Assembly (NCBI GenBank): GCA_937873285.1
Contig: CALMNV010000272.1
Span: forward strand, 1 to 5,599
DNA: 5,599 nucleotides
Origin: an uncultured Intrasporangium sp.
Lineage (GTDB): Bacteria; Actinomycetota; Actinomycetes; Actinomycetales; Dermatophilaceae
Direction of reading: 5' to 3'
Under the pieces are notes generated by a model, which searched no databases, had not been told where the DNA came from, and worked only from the letters and a program-made list of their open reading frames with translations. Position numbers and translations under genes: made by a program. Shown one piece after another: positions 1 to 5,599 of the stretch (its first letter is position 1; every line of letters starts with the position of its first letter).

Positions 1-1278
1 TGCTGCGCTGACGGGTGCGCGCGTGCCCTTGCCGACGCCCGGGTCGGTCGTGCCGACCCAGAACTCCGCGGCCTGCAGCCCCGGCTCGCTCACCGGCGCG
101 CTCAGCGTGACCGTCTCCGAGCCGGCCGTCGGGCTCGGCGACGCGGTGAGGCTGCCGAGCACCGGTGCCACCTTGTCGACGACGAGCGACACGCTTGCGT
201 TGGTGCCGGTGAGGCTTCCCCAGCTCCCGGCCGCGTCCTGCCCGCGGACGACGACGCGGTGCGTGCCGTTGGCGAGCGTGCGCACCTGGGAGAGGGGAAG
301 CAACCCGTAGACCGACTCCGAGGAGGAGTCGAGCGCCCCGTCGACGGGCAGCAGCTGCAGCCCGCTTCCGCCGGGAAGGTTCGTCGACGCGGGGTCGAGG
401 AACGCCTCGGCGTCCCTGACCACGCTCTGGGCACCACCCCTGGCGTCGAGGTCCTCGATGATCGCGGAGATGTAGAGATAGCCGGGGTTGCTCTTGTCGG
501 CGATGACACCGTTCGTCGGGTTGGGCCCGACGGAGGCGGCCACCACGCCGGGCGCCGTCAGGTCGACGGCCAAGGTGACGTCGAGCGGCGGCCCCCACAG
601 GCCGAGGGAGTTGCGGCTGTGCACGAAGACGTGGCTGTCACCCTCGCCGAGCGCCGCGACGGTGGCGGCCGGGATGCTGGCCGTCTCGCTGACGACGGTC
701 GCCGACCGGTTGAGGGCCATCGGCGTCCCGGTGCCGTTGCTGCCGACGGCGCCGAGGAAGTACTCGCCTGCGGTGATCGTGCCGCCGGCCGCGCTGTCGT
801 CGCCGGTGGCTCGCACCGTCACGTCGGCGGACCCGTTCGACGGCACCGGGCTCACGGAGCCGGCGGTCGTCGAGGGGCCGGTCTTGGGCAGGTTGAGCAC
901 CACCGAGCCGATGACGCCCCAGTTCCCGGCGGTGTCCCGGCCCCGGACATACACGACGTGCTTGCCTGCGTCGAGGCAGCTGAGGGCGACGGCCGGCGGC
1001 GTCGAGTCGCACGCGGCCGGCGCGACGGGGAGGGCGGGGATGGTGCCCGTCACCGCGACCGTGACGTCGGTGCCGAACGCGCCGGTCGTGGAAGAGGACT
1101 GCGCCATCGGGACTCCGAAGCCGGCGCCGGTCGTCACCGCGTCGTCGACGACGAGCTCGGCGGCATCCACCTTGCTCCCACCCGTGGTCGTGTCGCTCAC
1201 CCGGGCGGTGACCGTGACGTCCGCCAGCCCGTTGGAGGGGTTGGGCGAGGCCGCGATCGCCGTGGAGACCGGGCCGAC
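1..1278 (-). repeat. Ig-like domain repeats within MCO-C (at least four, last one cut)
   Basis: Within MCO-C the unit recurs at spacings of about 132, 106 and 130 residues. Starts to compare are AASPNPSNGLADVTVTA, GSVSPVPSNGSADVTVRA, ASVGPNPTNGVIAD and TASPSPTAGSETVTLSA. Ends to compare are HVVYVRGRDTAGNWG, HVFVHSRNSLGLWG and HRVVVRGQDAAGSWG. The copies are diverged at protein level. Such repeats usually space or anchor extracellular proteins or bind carbohydrate or other proteins. I cannot assign a named family with certainty. Confidence 0.7.
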
Positions 1279-2514
1279 GTCGTCGGTGCTCGGGGGTGGA
1301 GCCGCGGTGTCGAGGAAGGTCAGCATGCCCCCGAAGGCGACGCTGAGGGGGTCGTTGGTGGCCTGGCCGTTGTTGTCGAGGCGGCTCGTGGACTCGTAGA
1401 GCGCCACCTTCGCCTCTGGGCCCGTCGGCATGGTCACAGTGGCGTCGAGCGTCATCCCGGGCTCCACCGACGCGACCACGGACGGCTCGGGCTGGCGCAG
1501 GGCGTGGCCGTCCTCGGCGATCTGGGTCTGCGTGCCGCCGAGCAGGCTCATCGGGTGCGGCTCGGAGCCGGCGTTGACATAGCGCAGCAGCACCCTGCGG
1601 CCCTGGTCGGTCGCGATCGGGTCGCTGGACGGGAACGGCTTGCCGTTGAGCAGCCGGTAGCGCGAGCGGAACAGCCGCATGTCGAACCCCGCCGGGTTCG
1701 CGTTGAGCGCCGGGTCGATCTCGCTCAGCACGACGACCGCCTCGTCGTCGTAGGCCGCGCCGTAGGCGGTGCCTCCGGCGGTGCCGCCCTCCAGCACGAC
1801 GAGCGCTCCCGCCAGACCCATGGCCACCTGACGGGCACCGCCCGCGGTGTGGCCGGCCTCGTAGAGGAAGGTGCCCGCCCGGCTGGCGGTGAAGGTGTAT
1901 GCCGCCGAGCCCCCGGGCGGCACGCCGGCCTCCTGGGCCGCGGCCGAGAGGCCGGCCGTGATGGTCGATGCCCGCTGCCCGGGAAGGGCGAGCGACGTCG
2001 GCTCGGCCAGCGCGTTGTGCAAGGTGATGGTGACCCGGTCGCCCTGGGTGACGACGAGCACCGGCCCGGGTGCGTTCGCCGAGCCGGGCGCGCCGGTCGT
2101 GGAGTAGCCCCAGATCGGGATGCTCGTCCCGAGCACCTGGTTGGTGCCGGCCATCGCCCACAGGTCGCAGCCCACGGTGCCCGACCCACTGCTCGTGCAC
2201 CCGCTCGGCGCGAGCCGACCCACGGCCGCGGCGGCGGGCCTGGGGGCCACCGCCGGTCGCCCGGCCGGGATGGCCACCGGGCGGCGCGTCGACGCCACAA
2301 CGGGCCTGCCGGCCGAGGCAGCGACCCAGGGGGGGCCGGCGGTGTCGGGGTGCGGCGCCCCGACCGTGCCCGCAGCTGCCGCGGCGGGGCTCACGCCGGC
2401 GGCGAGCGCCATGGCACCGAGGCCGACGGCGAGCGCGGCCGCAAGGCGGCGGCGCAGCCGTCCCGGGACGTCGCCGCGACGGACCCGGCTGCTGGGCGAG
2501 GTGTGCGTGGTCAT
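1..2514 (-). CDS. Secreted copper-poor two-cupredoxin protein with C-terminal Ig-like repeats (MCO-C), 3' end outside window
   Basis: The frame is open from ATG 2514 to the left edge: 838 codons with no stop, so the C-terminus is missing. An Arg-rich n-region (10-23) and a hydrophobic stretch (24-42) ending in an Ala run form a Sec-type signal peptide. An Ala/Pro-rich linker follows to about residue 100, then C106 and C116. Cupredoxin domain 1 (about 110-245) shares the LHNxLxEPTS.x.PGQ pattern with MCO-B. Domain 2 (about 250-405) shares RYVNAG and ends FGGMLTFL. Copper ligands are nearly all gone: EPTSLALPG for HxHG, YEAG for HCH, HPMSLLGG (H320 only) for HPHG, and no HSH. Four Ig-like repeats follow, beginning near residues 413, 545, 651 and 781, the last one truncated. 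Each starts with a Pro-rich 'SPNPSNG..DVTV' strand, and the complete ones end 'G.H.V.VRG.D.AG.WG'. The protein looks like a dead paralogue of A and B acting as a structural or anchoring subunit; its cell-wall attachment, if any, lies off the window. Confidence 0.9.
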   Translation of the reverse strand, partial: MTTHTSPSSRVRRGDVPGRLRRRLAAALAVGLGAMALAAGVSPAAAAAGTVGAPHPDTAGPPWVAASAGRPVVASTRRPVAIPAGRPAVAPRPAAAAVGRLAPSGCTSSGSGTVGCDLWAMAGTNQVLGTSIPIWGYSTTGAPGSANAPGPVLVVTQGDRVTITLHNALAEPTSLALPGQRASTITAGLSAAAQEAGVPPGGSAAYTFTASRAGTFLYEAGHTAGGARQVAMGLAGALVVLEGGTAGGTAYGAAYDDEAVVVLSEIDPALNANPAGFDMRLFRSRYRLLNGKPFPSSDPIATDQGRRVLLRYVNAGSEPHPMSLLGGTQTQIAEDGHALRQPEPSVVASVEPGMTLDATVTMPTGPEAKVALYESTSRLDNNGQATNDPLSVAFGGMLTFLDTAAPPPSTDDVGPVSTAIAASPNPSNGLADVTVTARVSDTTTGGSKVDAAELVVDDAVTTGAGFGVPMAQSSSTTGAFGTDVTVAVTGTIPALPVAPAACDSTPPAVALSCLDAGKHVVYVRGRDTAGNWGVIGSVVLNLPKTGPSTTAGSVSPVPSNGSADVTVRATGDDSAAGGTITAGEYFLGAVGSNGTGTPMALNRSATVVSETASIPAATVAALGEGDSHVFVHSRNSLGLWGPPLDVTLAVDLTAPGVVAASVGPNPTNGVIADKSNPGYLYISAIIEDLDARGGAQSVVRDAEAFLDPASTNLPGGSGLQLLPVDGALDSSSESVYGLLPLSQVRTLANGTHRVVVRGQDAAGSWGSLTGTNASVSLVVDKVAPVLGSLTASPSPTAGSETVTLSAPVSEPGLQAAEFWVGTTDPGVGKGTRAPVSAA

Positions 2515-2524: not shown

Positions 2525-3823
2525 TCAGTTCGCTGCGCAGCCGGCGGGCGGGTCGATGCGGAAGACCGTCATCATGCCGCCGAAGGTTGCGCCGTAGTTG
2601 GTCGCCTGCTGAAGCGCGTGGCTGTGCGCGATGTGGTAGTACTCGCCGCACTGGTTGAACGAGGTCATGTTGGCCGGCAGCGCGTTCTTCTTCCCCAGGT
2701 ACGGGCTCTCGCTGAACCACGAGTCCGTGCCGACGAGGAGCTGGTCGGTGATGACCGGCAGCTCGGTGGGGACGGGGTTGGTGGCGGGGTCCCATTGCTC
2801 GACGTCGCGCCAGTCCATGAGCGCGTCGAGGCTTTGGCCGGGCTTGACGTCGAGGAGGAACTTGGAGTACGAGAGGTCCTCCCCCGCCGTGCCCTCGAGC
2901 GGTCGGCCGTCCTTGTTGATCACCCGCTCGTCGCTGCCGTGCGGGTGGAACGGGTAGTTGACCGTGCCGGCGTTGACGTAGCGGATGACGGCCGGTCTCG
3001 GGTTGGTCGTGGCGTCCCAGGGCTGGATGTGCACGAGTGCGCCGTACGGCTGGTTGGGCAGCCACGACGCGTTGTTCGGCGCGAGGGTGTCGGGCATGCT
3101 GCGGCCGTTGATCATGAAGTAGCGGGGGTTGTATGCGCTCCAGTCGACCGGCTCTGCCCGCTCGACGGCCAGGTGCACCTCGGGGTCGACCTCGGAGAGC
3201 AGGAAGACATACTCCCGGCCCGGGTTGAAGACCGAGTCGGGTCGGTTGTTGACCTGACCGGGGCGGCCGGACGGGCGCACGACGAGCGCGCCGTAGAGAC
3301 CCATCTGCCGCTGCTTGCGCACATCCGTGCCGCTCGAGTAGAGGTAGGTGCCCGGGGAGCCGGCGGTGAAGGTGTAGGTGACCGACCCGCTGGCGGCGTC
3401 CGCCGCCTGCACCAGCGAGGTCAGCGACCCACCGGAGTCGAACTGCGGTTGGGCCGGGTTGCCGTCGGCCTTCACCGCGGTCTGCCCGGGAAAGATCATC
3501 GAGGTCGGCTCCGGCAGCCGGTTGTGGAGGATGACGGTGACCGGCTTGCCGGACTCGACGCACAGCGTCGGCCCGGGCAGCTGGAAGCTGCGGGTGCTCA
3601 TCCCATAGCTCCAGCTGAGGATCGAGTTGCCGTCGGGCGTGGTGACATAGCCGCTGCGAGCGGTGAGGGAGAAGGTCTGCTGGGCGTTGGCCTCGCAGAG
3701 CAGCCCCTCGGACGGTGCGGCGACAGCGCCGGTGGATGTGGTCAGGGCTGCGGCGGCAAGGGCGAGCGTGGCGGCCGCGGTGGCGGCGACGGCACGGGCG
3801 CGGCGGGTGCTGAGAAGTCACAT
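2525..3823 (-). CDS. Secreted two-cupredoxin protein carrying the complementary half of a trinuclear Cu site (MCO-B); nonsense at codon 2
   Basis: Counting from ATG 3823 there are 432 codons before the stop. Codons 3-35 give a Sec signal peptide (LLSTRRARAVAATAAATLAL, then AAAA and a GAVA-AP cleavage region). Domain 1 (about 55-190) keeps the cupredoxin framework but has lost copper ligands: PTSMIFPG replaces HTLHWHG of MCO-A, and YLYSSGTDVRKQRQMGL replaces its HCH motif. Domain 2 (about 205-425) has YPFHPHG (H293, H295) and YYHIAHSHALQQ (H397, H400, H402). By family knowledge these are the type 2/3 motifs of a laccase half that lacks type 1 copper. It ends FGGMMTVFRI, like MCO-A. Alone it could not act as an oxidase; with MCO-A the eight trinuclear His are complete. 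C43 and C88 may pair. Because codon 2 is TGA, the first standard start is ATG 3601 (codon 75), which has GGAG seven bases upstream. That 358-residue product would lack the signal peptide and the first strands. The gene may therefore be intact (if the TGA is an error), crippled, or cytosolic. Confidence 0.85.
3818..3820 (-). other. In-frame TGA at codon 2 of MCO-B
   Basis: The minus strand reads ATG TGA CTT CTC AGC ACC CGC CGC. The frame after the TGA encodes a textbook Sec signal peptide and continues without interruption into MCO-B, with no other ATG, GTG or TTG until codon 75. A single C-to-T change (CGA to TGA) would explain it and would restore an MRLLSTRRARA start. It could be a true null mutation, a sequencing or assembly error, or a minimal start-stop element. 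The sequence alone does not separate these. Confidence 0.85.
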
Positions 3824-3828
3824 CGAGG

Positions 3829-3834
3829 TCCTCC
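3829..3834 (-). promoter_or_regulatory. Strong ribosome binding site GGAGGA of MCO-B
   Basis: On the minus strand GGAGGA (3834-3829) lies five bases before ATG 3823-3821, in the 16-bp gap after the MCO-A stop. The ATG is in frame with an intact signal peptide and the rest of MCO-B, which marks it as the ancestral start. A GTG at 3821-3819 is also at usable distance but opens a different, non-homologous frame. Confidence 0.75.
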
Positions 3835-3839
3835 GGGCG

Positions 3840-5120
3840 TCACGTGTTGGGCAGGGCCTGGGGCGGGTAGGTGCCCGGTGGGCCCACGCGGAGGACGGTC
3901 ATCATCCCGCCCCAGCCCGGACCACCCCCGTTGCCGAGATAGGAGAAGCGCCGGTCGTAGAAGAGGAACTCGCCGACCCGGTCGGGGCGCACGAGCACGT
4001 CCCGGCTCTCGCCGGGGCCGACGTCGACGGTGTTGGTCACCCGGTAGCCGGACACCCCGTCCCTTCCGCGGAGCAGGCTGGCGTCCTTGGCGATGACCTG
4101 CAGGTCGACGTTGTCCATCGTCATGGCGTGGTTCTGGAAGCCGAGGTTCGCCAGCCGCAGCAGCACGGTCTCACCGACGTTGCAGGTCAGCAGCGAGGAG
4201 ATGGGCTGGTACTGCAGCCTGCCCGCCGTCGCCACAAGCGGGTCGCCGTTCGGCGCGGTCGTGTCGGGATATCCGCGGCCGTTGAGCAGCCAGAAGCTGG
4301 GGTCGTAGTCCGTCCAGTCGCTGACCTGGATGTGGGCGTCGCGGTAGTGTGCCGCCGACCACAGCTCCGTGAGCAGGAAGCCGAACTCGCGGTCGTAGCG
4401 GGTGCTGCCGTCGCCGTCGTTGTAGGCGTACTGCGTGCCGAGCGGGTCGTTGCCGACAGGCGACCGGTTCTGCTTCGGGCGCACGAACACCATGCCGGTC
4501 ATCCCCATCTGCACGTGCTCGACGTCCTCGAAGTGGCAGTGGTACATGTACGTCCCGGGGTCGTGAGGCCGGTAGAAGTAGGACAGGTCCCGGCCGATCG
4601 GCACCGCCATCGACAGTTCGGGCACCCCGTCGAAGAGCGGAATGGCGTTGCGGAAGCCGTGCCAGTGCAGGGTGTGCCCGTCGAAGAGGTCCGGGCGCTG
4701 CACGAGGCCGAGGTTGCTCAGCGTGATGGTGATGTCGTCCTCCTCGTCGAAGACGAGCATCGGCGCGCTGCTCTGGGCCTTGCCCCGCTGCGCGGCCACC
4801 TGGGCGTCCGACATGCCGGTGACGTCACGGAAGCCGAAGACGTAGGTGTCGAACCCCGACGGCGCCAGGCTGTCGGGAAAGAACGGCGGGTCTGCCGGCG
4901 AGCCCGACGGCATACTGACCCATCCGTCCGTGCCGGCCAGGTGGACGGTGCGGACCTGGCCCCCACCGGGGGTGGTCGCCGCCGCGGCGCCGGTTGATGC
5001 CGCCCTCGCGACGGGGCCGGTCATCAGGCGGGACCCGAGCAGTGCCCCGCCGACGGCGCCCGCGCCGCCGAGCAGCACGGCGCGGCGGCCCGGGCGGTGC
5101 GAGGAGAAGGTCTGGTCCAT
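3840..5120 (-). CDS. Tat-exported two-cupredoxin multicopper oxidase subunit with the type 1 Cu site and half of the trinuclear site (MCO-A)
   Basis: From ATG 5120 the product has 426 residues. Residues 8-13 (HRPGRR) followed by a hydrophobic, Gly/Ala-rich stretch (14-33) and an ARAAS-like cleavage region near 38-42 form a twin-arginine signal. This fits a copper enzyme folded before export. Cupredoxin domain 1 (about 90-215) carries HTLHWHG (H149, H152, H154) and YHCHFEDVEHVQMGM (H194, C195, H196, H202, M205/M207). By family knowledge these supply type 1 copper (H149, C195, H202, Met) and four His of the type 2/3 trinuclear cluster. Domain 2 (about 245-415) keeps the cupredoxin ending GGMMTVL but has NHAMTMDN where HxH is expected and FLFYDRRF in place of HCH/HSH, so it cannot complete the cluster. 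The protein is therefore incomplete as a laccase on its own. The likely partner is MCO-B, 16 bp downstream. The YVFGFRDVTG and FDGVPELSM segments resemble large metal-oxidase-type multicopper oxidases more than fungal laccases. The substrate is unknown. Confidence 0.92.
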   Translation of the reverse strand: MDQTFSSHRPGRRAVLLGGAGAVGGALLGSRLMTGPVARAASTGAAAATTPGGGQVRTVHLAGTDGWVSMPSGSPADPPFFPDSLAPSGFDTYVFGFRDVTGMSDAQVAAQRGKAQSSAPMLVFDEEDDITITLSNLGLVQRPDLFDGHTLHWHGFRNAIPLFDGVPELSMAVPIGRDLSYFYRPHDPGTYMYHCHFEDVEHVQMGMTGMVFVRPKQNRSPVGNDPLGTQYAYNDGDGSTRYDREFGFLLTELWSAAHYRDAHIQVSDWTDYDPSFWLLNGRGYPDTTAPNGDPLVATAGRLQYQPISSLLTCNVGETVLLRLANLGFQNHAMTMDNVDLQVIAKDASLLRGRDGVSGYRVTNTVDVGPGESRDVLVRPDRVGEFLFYDRRFSYLGNGGGPGWGGMMTVLRVGPPGTYPPQALPNT

Positions 5121-5266: not shown

Positions 5267-5599
5267 TCATGGCTTCACCTGGTCCGACCCGGCGTCCCAC
5301 CGCGAGCCCGACGGACGCGGCTGGCCGTCGATGTCGGTGGCTGGAGCCGTCACGGTCTGGGTGAAGCTGGTGCCCCACACGACCGAGGTGCTGGGCTGCC
5401 CACGGCCCCACGCCGCGGAGGTCGACCCGGTCAGGTGGTAGTCGCCGAGCAGGCGGGGCGGGAGCAGCTCGGTGACGATGGCCGCCTGGCGGAAGGCGGG
5501 GTAGGTCCGGGAGGCGAGGACGCTGACGGACACGTCGAACGGGTCCTGCAGCCCCGGGGTGTCGGTCACCGTCGTCGCCTCGCCGCCCAGGGCGGCCAC
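5267..5599 (-). CDS. C-terminal end of a secreted beta-helix / choice-of-anchor-Q-like protein (5' end outside window)
   Basis: The frame is open from the right window edge to a TGA at 5269-5267, giving 110 residues of a protein whose start lies outside the window. Two stretches resemble the tail of right-handed parallel beta-helix proteins with a choice-of-anchor Q domain: GDYHLTGSTSAAWGRG, like the usual 'DYHL..GSPAIDAG', and DIDGQPRPSGSRWDAGSDQ, like the usual 'DIDGDPRP.G.G.DIGADE'. Such tails normally close large extracellular surface proteins. No transmembrane segment or sortase motif is visible here, and the protein ends ...DQVKP. It lies 146 bp upstream of MCO-A on the same strand, so co-transcription is plausible, although a strong inverted repeat separates the two. 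The family call rests on motif memory alone. The missing N-terminal part could hold any domain, including more cupredoxins. Confidence 0.7.
   Translation of the reverse strand: MAALGGEATTVTDTPGLQDPFDVSVSVLASRTYPAFRQAAIVTELLPPRLLGDYHLTGSTSAAWGRGQPSTSVVWGTSFTQTVTAPATDIDGQPRPSGSRWDAGSDQVKP

Follow-up and report, generated by a model that had tools for sequence, protein, structure and literature searches.

A trinuclear copper site apparently shared by the products of two adjacent multicopper oxidase genes in an uncultured Intrasporangium

Can two adjacent genes, each encoding only one half of the copper site of a multicopper oxidase, specify one enzyme between them? This question is raised by a stretch of DNA of 5,599 nucleotides from an uncultured Intrasporangium sp. 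(contig CALMNV010000272.1 of assembly GCA_937873285.1), the whole of which is called the window here. On its minus strand it carries, head to tail, the 3′ end of a giant gene and three open reading frames, A, B and C, with gaps of 16 bases between A and B and of 10 bases between B and C. The original prediction held that A and B have lost opposite parts of the site and form an obligate hetero-oligomer with the trinuclear cluster between the subunits. We now consider it quite probable, on the basis of sequence comparisons, that A and B contribute complementary half-sites to a cluster located where domain 1 of A meets the second domain of B, likely within an A-B-C heterotrimer in which C would be the inactive subunit that closes the ring. 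The shared A-B site is strongly supported by the conservation of the ligands; from the analogy with known trimers we infer the A-B-C ring and, with less weight, that C tethers this ring to the giant surface-type protein encoded upstream.

Opposite half-sites in A and B

The trinuclear cluster of multicopper oxidases is built from four histidines of each of two domains, as described in PMC3600357. Gene A (3840..5120, minus strand) is an open reading frame of 426 amino acids with two cupredoxin domains (Pfam Cu-oxidase_2/3 and Cu-oxidase) and an RR (Tat-like) N terminus. Gene B (2525..3823, minus strand), with its ATG at 3823 and its stop codon at 2525-2527, likewise encodes two cupredoxin domains, here behind a signal-like N terminus, and is open from 2528 to 3817 (430 codons), so that both proteins have about 430 residues. 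The ligands of A lie in domain 1: HTLHWHG (residues 149-155; HTLHWH at 4659..4676, minus strand) has H149 in the position of a type 1 ligand and H152 and H154 in trinuclear positions, and HCHFEDVEHVQMGM (residues 194-207; 4500..4541, minus strand) has H194 and H196 in trinuclear positions and C195, H202 and either M205 or M207 in those of the type 1 copper. This putative assignment of histidines to coppers in A and B follows from alignment with known families and from general knowledge. In domain 2 of A the expected half-site is replaced by NHAMTM and YDR, with Thr, Asp, Tyr and Arg at the four places.

In B the situation is reversed. Domain 1 reads PTSMIFPG and YSSG, with Ile, Pro, Ser and Gly at the trinuclear places; domain 2 has retained FHPHG and HSH, of which HPH (2939..2947, minus strand) provides H291 and H293 and HSH (2618..2626, minus strand) provides H398 and H400 to the half-site, with Ser in the place of the Cys. 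These residue numbers refer to the open frame; counted from the ATG at 3823, two codons earlier, the same histidines are 293, 295, 400 and 402. Gene C (1..2514, minus strand, continuing beyond position 1) is present with its 5′ 838 codons, which encode two cupredoxin domains without a half-site (Pfam Cu-oxidase_3), followed by repeats. The C of the window has no histidine at any of the eight trinuclear places, and in its relatives any given one of these places is occupied by histidine in at most 1 of 73 aligned sequences. The type 1 set is found only in A, in domain 1 and not in domain 2, the Cys being absent there from the aligned B and C rows. By sequence, A, B and C would together have a single set of eight trinuclear histidines.

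Related loci were collected by scanning one genome per species with a profile of A (scan patterns GTYMYHC and HFEDVEH). The scan matched 428 stretches, of which 285 encode a relative, and the best 80 of the 285 were kept; they come from Actinomycetota, Chloroflexota, one metagenome-assembled genome (MAG) of the Methylococcaceae, one MAG of the Dormibacteraeota and a few unclassified bins. In A, the residues H149, H152, H154, C195, H196 and H202 are conserved in 80/80 loci, H194 and M207 in 79/80 and M205 in 76/80, the conservation of H149, H152, H154 and M207 not being built in by the retrieval pattern. B played no part in the retrieval. In its ungapped rows (80 B frames in 78 loci, since B of L048 lies in two frames and L062 has a second B frame at its edge) H291 and H293 are found in 79/79 and H398 and H400 in 78/78. 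The residue in the middle of HSH is Ser in 40, Asn in 34, Asp in 2 and Val in 2 rows, and never Cys. At the lost places a histidine occurs in 1 of 320 cells in domain 2 of A and in none in domain 1 of B. Because the four histidines of A and the four of B are invariant or nearly so in the 80 loci and the lost positions stay lost, the split of the motifs between A and B is not a matter of chance. As to L048, it is from a MAG in which B is broken into two frames (L048:2707-3722).

The positions of the motifs in A and B were correctly given in the original prediction, and the reciprocal loss which it described is borne out by both the window and the 80 loci, as is its expectation that the domain 2 histidines of B be conserved. 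Its statement that the HxH motifs, the Cys and the axial Met each occur only once across the pair has to be qualified for the last of these: it applies if the axial ligand is M207 but not if it is M205, since a Met aligned with M205 is also present in B and C, and the sequence leaves both candidates.

Gene order, relatives and descent

In 78 of the 80 loci the gene immediately downstream of A, on the same strand, is B; in the two others, L047 and L061, no more than 310 bases separate A from the end of the contig, and for L061 a B is present elsewhere in the genome, on another contig. C comes after B in 72/80 loci. For 7 of the remaining 8 the contig ends within 340 bases, and in the eighth, L068, a frame of 987 codons that starts with repeats, as does C of L040, leaves the contig before any C domain is reached. 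The architecture of C varies: in L075, L068 and L040 (some of the Chloroflexota) the gene after B is longer and begins with other domains or repeats.

Among 186 genomes of the window's family, searched with an E value of 1e-20 or better for A and with more than 300 bits for C, A was found in 17, B in 17 and C in 17, and these are the identical genomes, that of the window included. They contain 18 sets in all, adjacent by coordinates. The association of A with B has a Fisher p of 2e-24 (2e-23 without the window's own genome). The search with C gave two further genomes with 75-bit matches, neither of which has A or B. In 251 genomes of Chloroflexota strong matches to A and B (>400 bits) fell into the same 7 genomes, with 8 adjacent pairs (p 9e-14; Fisher p 3e-12 without the centre genome, one of the 7, which had been picked for carrying the set); weaker matches were those of G779, by both the A and the B profile at about 110 bits, and of G720, by B at 80 bits. 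A survey for A of 346 evenly sampled Actinomycetota found it in 3, including the window's own genome. The system is uncommon, and A and B travel together without exception in both surveys: every genome with a strong A has an adjacent B (17/17 and 7/7), as the original prediction required of homologous loci. The A-B oligomer with a cluster between subunits that it proposed is supported by this co-occurrence and by the invariance of the B histidines; the proposal is incomplete in that it leaves out C. Since C, a two-domain paralogue without a half-site, follows B in 72 of the 80 loci, the likeliest assembly is A-B-C rather than A-B alone.

More distant sets were found on plasmids, where a search with A gave 8 records (2 from Cupriavidus and 6 from Paraburkholderia). 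In the two that were examined, L115 and L116, which represent both genera, A, B and C have the same order and the same division of the half-sites, and A is 35-36% identical to that of the window over the matched part. In these Burkholderiaceae records C is fused to a relative of the giant protein, which in one-sequence comparisons with the giant of L005 scored 164 bits (L115) and 149 bits (L116), with a sizeable composition bias in both. A genome of the Pseudomonadota, G1031, has giant gene, A, B and C in a row, again with the same division. In a sample of 319 Pseudomonadota genomes, surveyed with the A profile, 40 were matched, strongly only G1031 and the Methylococcaceae genome. With respect to MofA and OmpB, for which these genomes were also inspected, no strong match to the A profile lay in a long single frame, the two strong ones being in frames of 513 and 411 codons.

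Ten weak matches (L119-L128) were fetched as controls. Leaving aside L125, which is truncated at the end of its contig, and an additional weak frame in L127, all nine full-length sequences, which are close to one another, combine in a single chain a domain 1 with HxH and HCH and a domain 2 with HxH and HDH. L083 (from G779) is a complete single-chain oxidase as well. A different arrangement is found in L084 (from G720, a Chloroflexota genome; 575-2866, minus strand), which is a protein of 764 residues composed of two two-domain units in tandem. In unit 1, domain 1 reads HTIHLH and HCHQNNVEHQQMGM and domain 2 is dead; in unit 2 it is domain 1 that is dead, and domain 2 reads HAMHLHG and HDH. 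The reciprocal loss is that of A and B, but here within one polypeptide, which ends in an extra cupredoxin-like stretch (by eye) and contains no C-like unit. Two proteins of cupredoxin-like look (by eye) are encoded beside L084. In the 251 Chloroflexota genomes no second protein was matched over the whole length of L084, and no clean fusion of A and B was among the best 120 of 3,376 matches to a joined A+B query. An apparent A-B fusion of 700 amino acids from the protein database, P0242, was rejected: judged by eye, it consists of a shortened A and a B whose reading frame is lost ahead of HSH, and it is likely an artefact of assembly or sequencing.

How A, B, C and L084 are related was examined in a tree of 54 rows and 317 columns, with 14 A, 14 B and 11 C sequences from the 80 loci, the three of the window, three each of L115 and L116, the two units of L084, L083 and three other two-domain oxidases. 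Each of the three proteins forms a single clade (support 100/100 for A, 98/87 for B and 100/99 for C); B and C are sisters (100/99), and A goes with the L083/L084 group (96/77). In profile comparisons the three proteins align in register, with probabilities of 99.4 for A-B, 100 for C-B and 99.8 for C-A. By these sequence criteria A, B and C are paralogues of common descent. The two units of L084 are sisters of each other (100/92), next to L083 (100/98) and away from B, and forcing unit 2 into the B clade was rejected (p 0.00045). Judged from the tree, L084 is apparently an independent duplication, and the simplest reading would be that complementary loss after duplication happened twice, the copies having been left separate in one case and joined in the other.

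Proposed assembly and its rivals

The solved structures nearest to A are 3g5w and 2zwn, both two-domain oxidases, which we take to be of type C. Oxidases of type C are the closest to A by sequence, and A, B and C resemble them in that each chain has two cupredoxin domains (by Pfam and profile comparisons), with a type 1 site in domain 1 (in A) and a cluster to be expected where domain 1 of a subunit meets domain 2 of its neighbour. Type C chains, however, carry both halves of the site (9/9 controls), whereas A lacks the domain 2 set and B the domain 1 set; since they do not have both half-sites in each chain, A, B and C are not ordinary two-domain multicopper oxidases. Two-domain oxidases are trimers with the cluster between two monomers, according to PMC3192119, and according to PMC13151041 one of these monomers provides its domain 1 and the adjacent one its domain 2. 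In the oxidases described in these papers a single chain forms the trimer and residues from two protomers meet at the cluster, whereas here the halves are divided between the products of different genes, and the third paralogue lacks both.

By analogy with these homotrimers, a ring of A, B and C would have three interfaces between a domain 1 and a domain 2. Only the interface of A domain 1 with B domain 2 would carry ligands; those of B domain 1 with C domain 2 and of C domain 1 with A domain 2 would carry none. The type 1 copper of A (by position H149, C195, H202 and M205 or M207) would take up electrons from the substrate, the electrons would pass via the Cys-His link to the cluster, and oxygen would be reduced to water there. 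A ring with this sole liganded interface would explain why domain 2 of A, domain 1 of B and both domains of C are all free of half-sites, and also why the dead C keeps both of its domains and stays beside A and B.

The A-B-C complex would work as a type C trimer in which a single interface is active or, seen differently, as a ceruloplasmin in three pieces. It would resemble ceruloplasmin and hephaestin in its total of six cupredoxin domains, in having no more than one trinuclear site and in the loss of sites elsewhere (PMC3600357). Those proteins are one chain, whereas here each of three genes encodes two of the domains. In ceruloplasmin, domains 2, 4 and 6 hold mononuclear sites, whereas the only full type 1 set of A-B-C is in domain 1 of A. 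The manganese oxidase Mnx (MnxE3F3G) is also a multicopper oxidase that needs partner subunits. According to PMC5622069, MnxG is the sole oxidase and MnxE and MnxF are without similarity to characterised proteins; here, in contrast, the partners are paralogues of the oxidase that would supply ligands. MnxE and MnxF are small, whereas A, B and C are two-domain paralogues; a small protein that may or may not be akin to MnxE and MnxF is often encoded near C (see below). The outer-surface multicopper oxidases OmpB and MofA also come close: a surface oxidase with an extra domain of repeat type, which in OmpB is fibronectin type III (PMC5566968), would be similar in plan to A-B-C, be it related by descent or not. 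A link to manganese oxidation is at most conceivable, in view of L051 (MnB_9, Mn-Methylococcaceae) and of the literature on such oxidases. Taken as a whole, and again by sequence and analogy, we lean somewhat towards the broader picture of a heterotrimeric ring of diverged two-domain subunits, in which one cluster is shared by two proteins and the dead third hooks the ring to the giant protein; this would be a living, unfused counterpart of the six-domain plan of ceruloplasmin, and the splitting of the site between duplicates would have arisen at least twice.

Which other explanations are there? One is that the shared site belongs to a heterodimer or multimer of A and B from which C is absent, C being an accessory adhesin or anchor that is merely co-transcribed. 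L084 holds just the two active-half units in one chain, and the repeats of C as well as its fusion to the giant protein suggest an anchoring role. We nevertheless hold this to be unlikely, although it has the most to be said for it among the rivals, because C has retained both cupredoxin domains, colinear with B, and is the sister of B in the tree; because the short C proteins of about 290-405 amino acids (L078, L079 and L081) have room for little beyond these two domains; and because C (>300 bits) is found in exactly the same 17 genomes of the family. Another explanation dispenses with the trinuclear cluster altogether: A would carry electrons by means of a single blue copper (type 1) site, and B would be an unrelated protein that binds copper or serves as a scaffold. 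This would agree with the complete type 1 site in A alone. It would leave the four A histidines that are not type 1 ligands, and all four of B, with no reason to be invariant across phyla, although by alignment with ordinary two-domain oxidases both sets are at canonical trinuclear positions, and we regard it as improbable. Finally, A and B could be pseudo-enzymes, two decaying copies of an ordinary oxidase, each of which has lost half of the site and one of which, B of the window, has a stop as its second codon. The original prediction had already decided against two separate degenerate enzymes, and so do we: the same split, with near-invariant ligands, is kept in Actinomycetota, Chloroflexota and Pseudomonadota, and A, B and C form separate clades, which makes decay very improbable indeed.

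There are several points that weigh against the A-B-C ring with its shared site, or against parts of the evidence for it. The in-frame TGA (3818..3820, minus strand) directly follows the ATG of B (3823-3821) in this assembly, which makes the start of B unclear, and the window's copy of B may be broken or mis-sequenced; the B homologues aligned at this position are open there, and the one TAA noted in each of two Chloroflexota B matches lies 5′ of the start codon, unlike the TGA of the window. The retrieval patterns include part of the motif from H194 to H202 of A, so that the conservation of this motif is partly by construction, and the A relative of L024 has Leu at H194, which is either a real change or a sequence error. 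The His just before the lost HxH remains in 42 of 80 rows of A domain 2 and in 59 of 72 rows of C. B was not found at an E value of 1e-20 in the genome of L047, which is very fragmented (at least 1,846 contigs), and absences are in general less sure than presences because the surveys score only some first-look candidates per genome. The copper columns were kept in the tree alignment. Forcing unit 1 of L084 into the A clade did not reach rejection (p 0.086), and because such a joining survives, the independence of L084 rests on the support values and on unit 2. Since L084 carries only two units, A and B alone could suffice.

Surface setting and significance

Upstream of A the window contains the 3′ end of the gene of a giant surface-type protein of about 1,800 amino acids (5267..5599, minus strand); over 113 residues it shares 58% identity with the C terminus of its counterpart in L033. 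In directed searches a giant gene of the kind present in L005 or L050 was matched wherever at least 5 kb of sequence precedes A (64 of 64 loci), and in 63 of these loci its end lies immediately before A; the giant of L005 has SdrD-type, TIG and weak beta-helix matches. On the other side, a small protein of about 155 amino acids with no Pfam match (e.g., L003:5758-6219) was matched in 54 of the 56 loci with at least 2.5 kb after C. It is clearly after C in 47, and in L046 and L062 the best match is elsewhere; its role is perhaps in assembly or copper loading. Relatives of a CopC-CopD fusion were matched in 39/56 loci (clearly after C in 37) and an S8 protease in 21/56; relatives of a sensor kinase were matched in 24/64 and of a regulator in 27/64. 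An RR followed by a hydrophobic stretch precedes A in 70/80 loci (by a loose pattern). The natural reading of this setting is that A-B-C would be a secreted, copper-loaded and surface-bound enzyme.

In the titles and abstract openings of the open-access papers that the literature searches listed, no description of such an A-B-C system was found. The multicopper oxidases in the literature cited here have their ligands in one chain or in one chain repeated three times. Annotation at present gives the label "multicopper oxidase" to each of these subunits individually, a label to be read with caution, since by its ligands each subunit alone should be inactive. If the interpretation given here is right, the locus would be a clear case of duplication and complementary loss leading to an obligate hetero-oligomer, and it would provide a concrete intermediate between the homotrimeric two-domain oxidases and the six-domain ring of ceruloplasmin.

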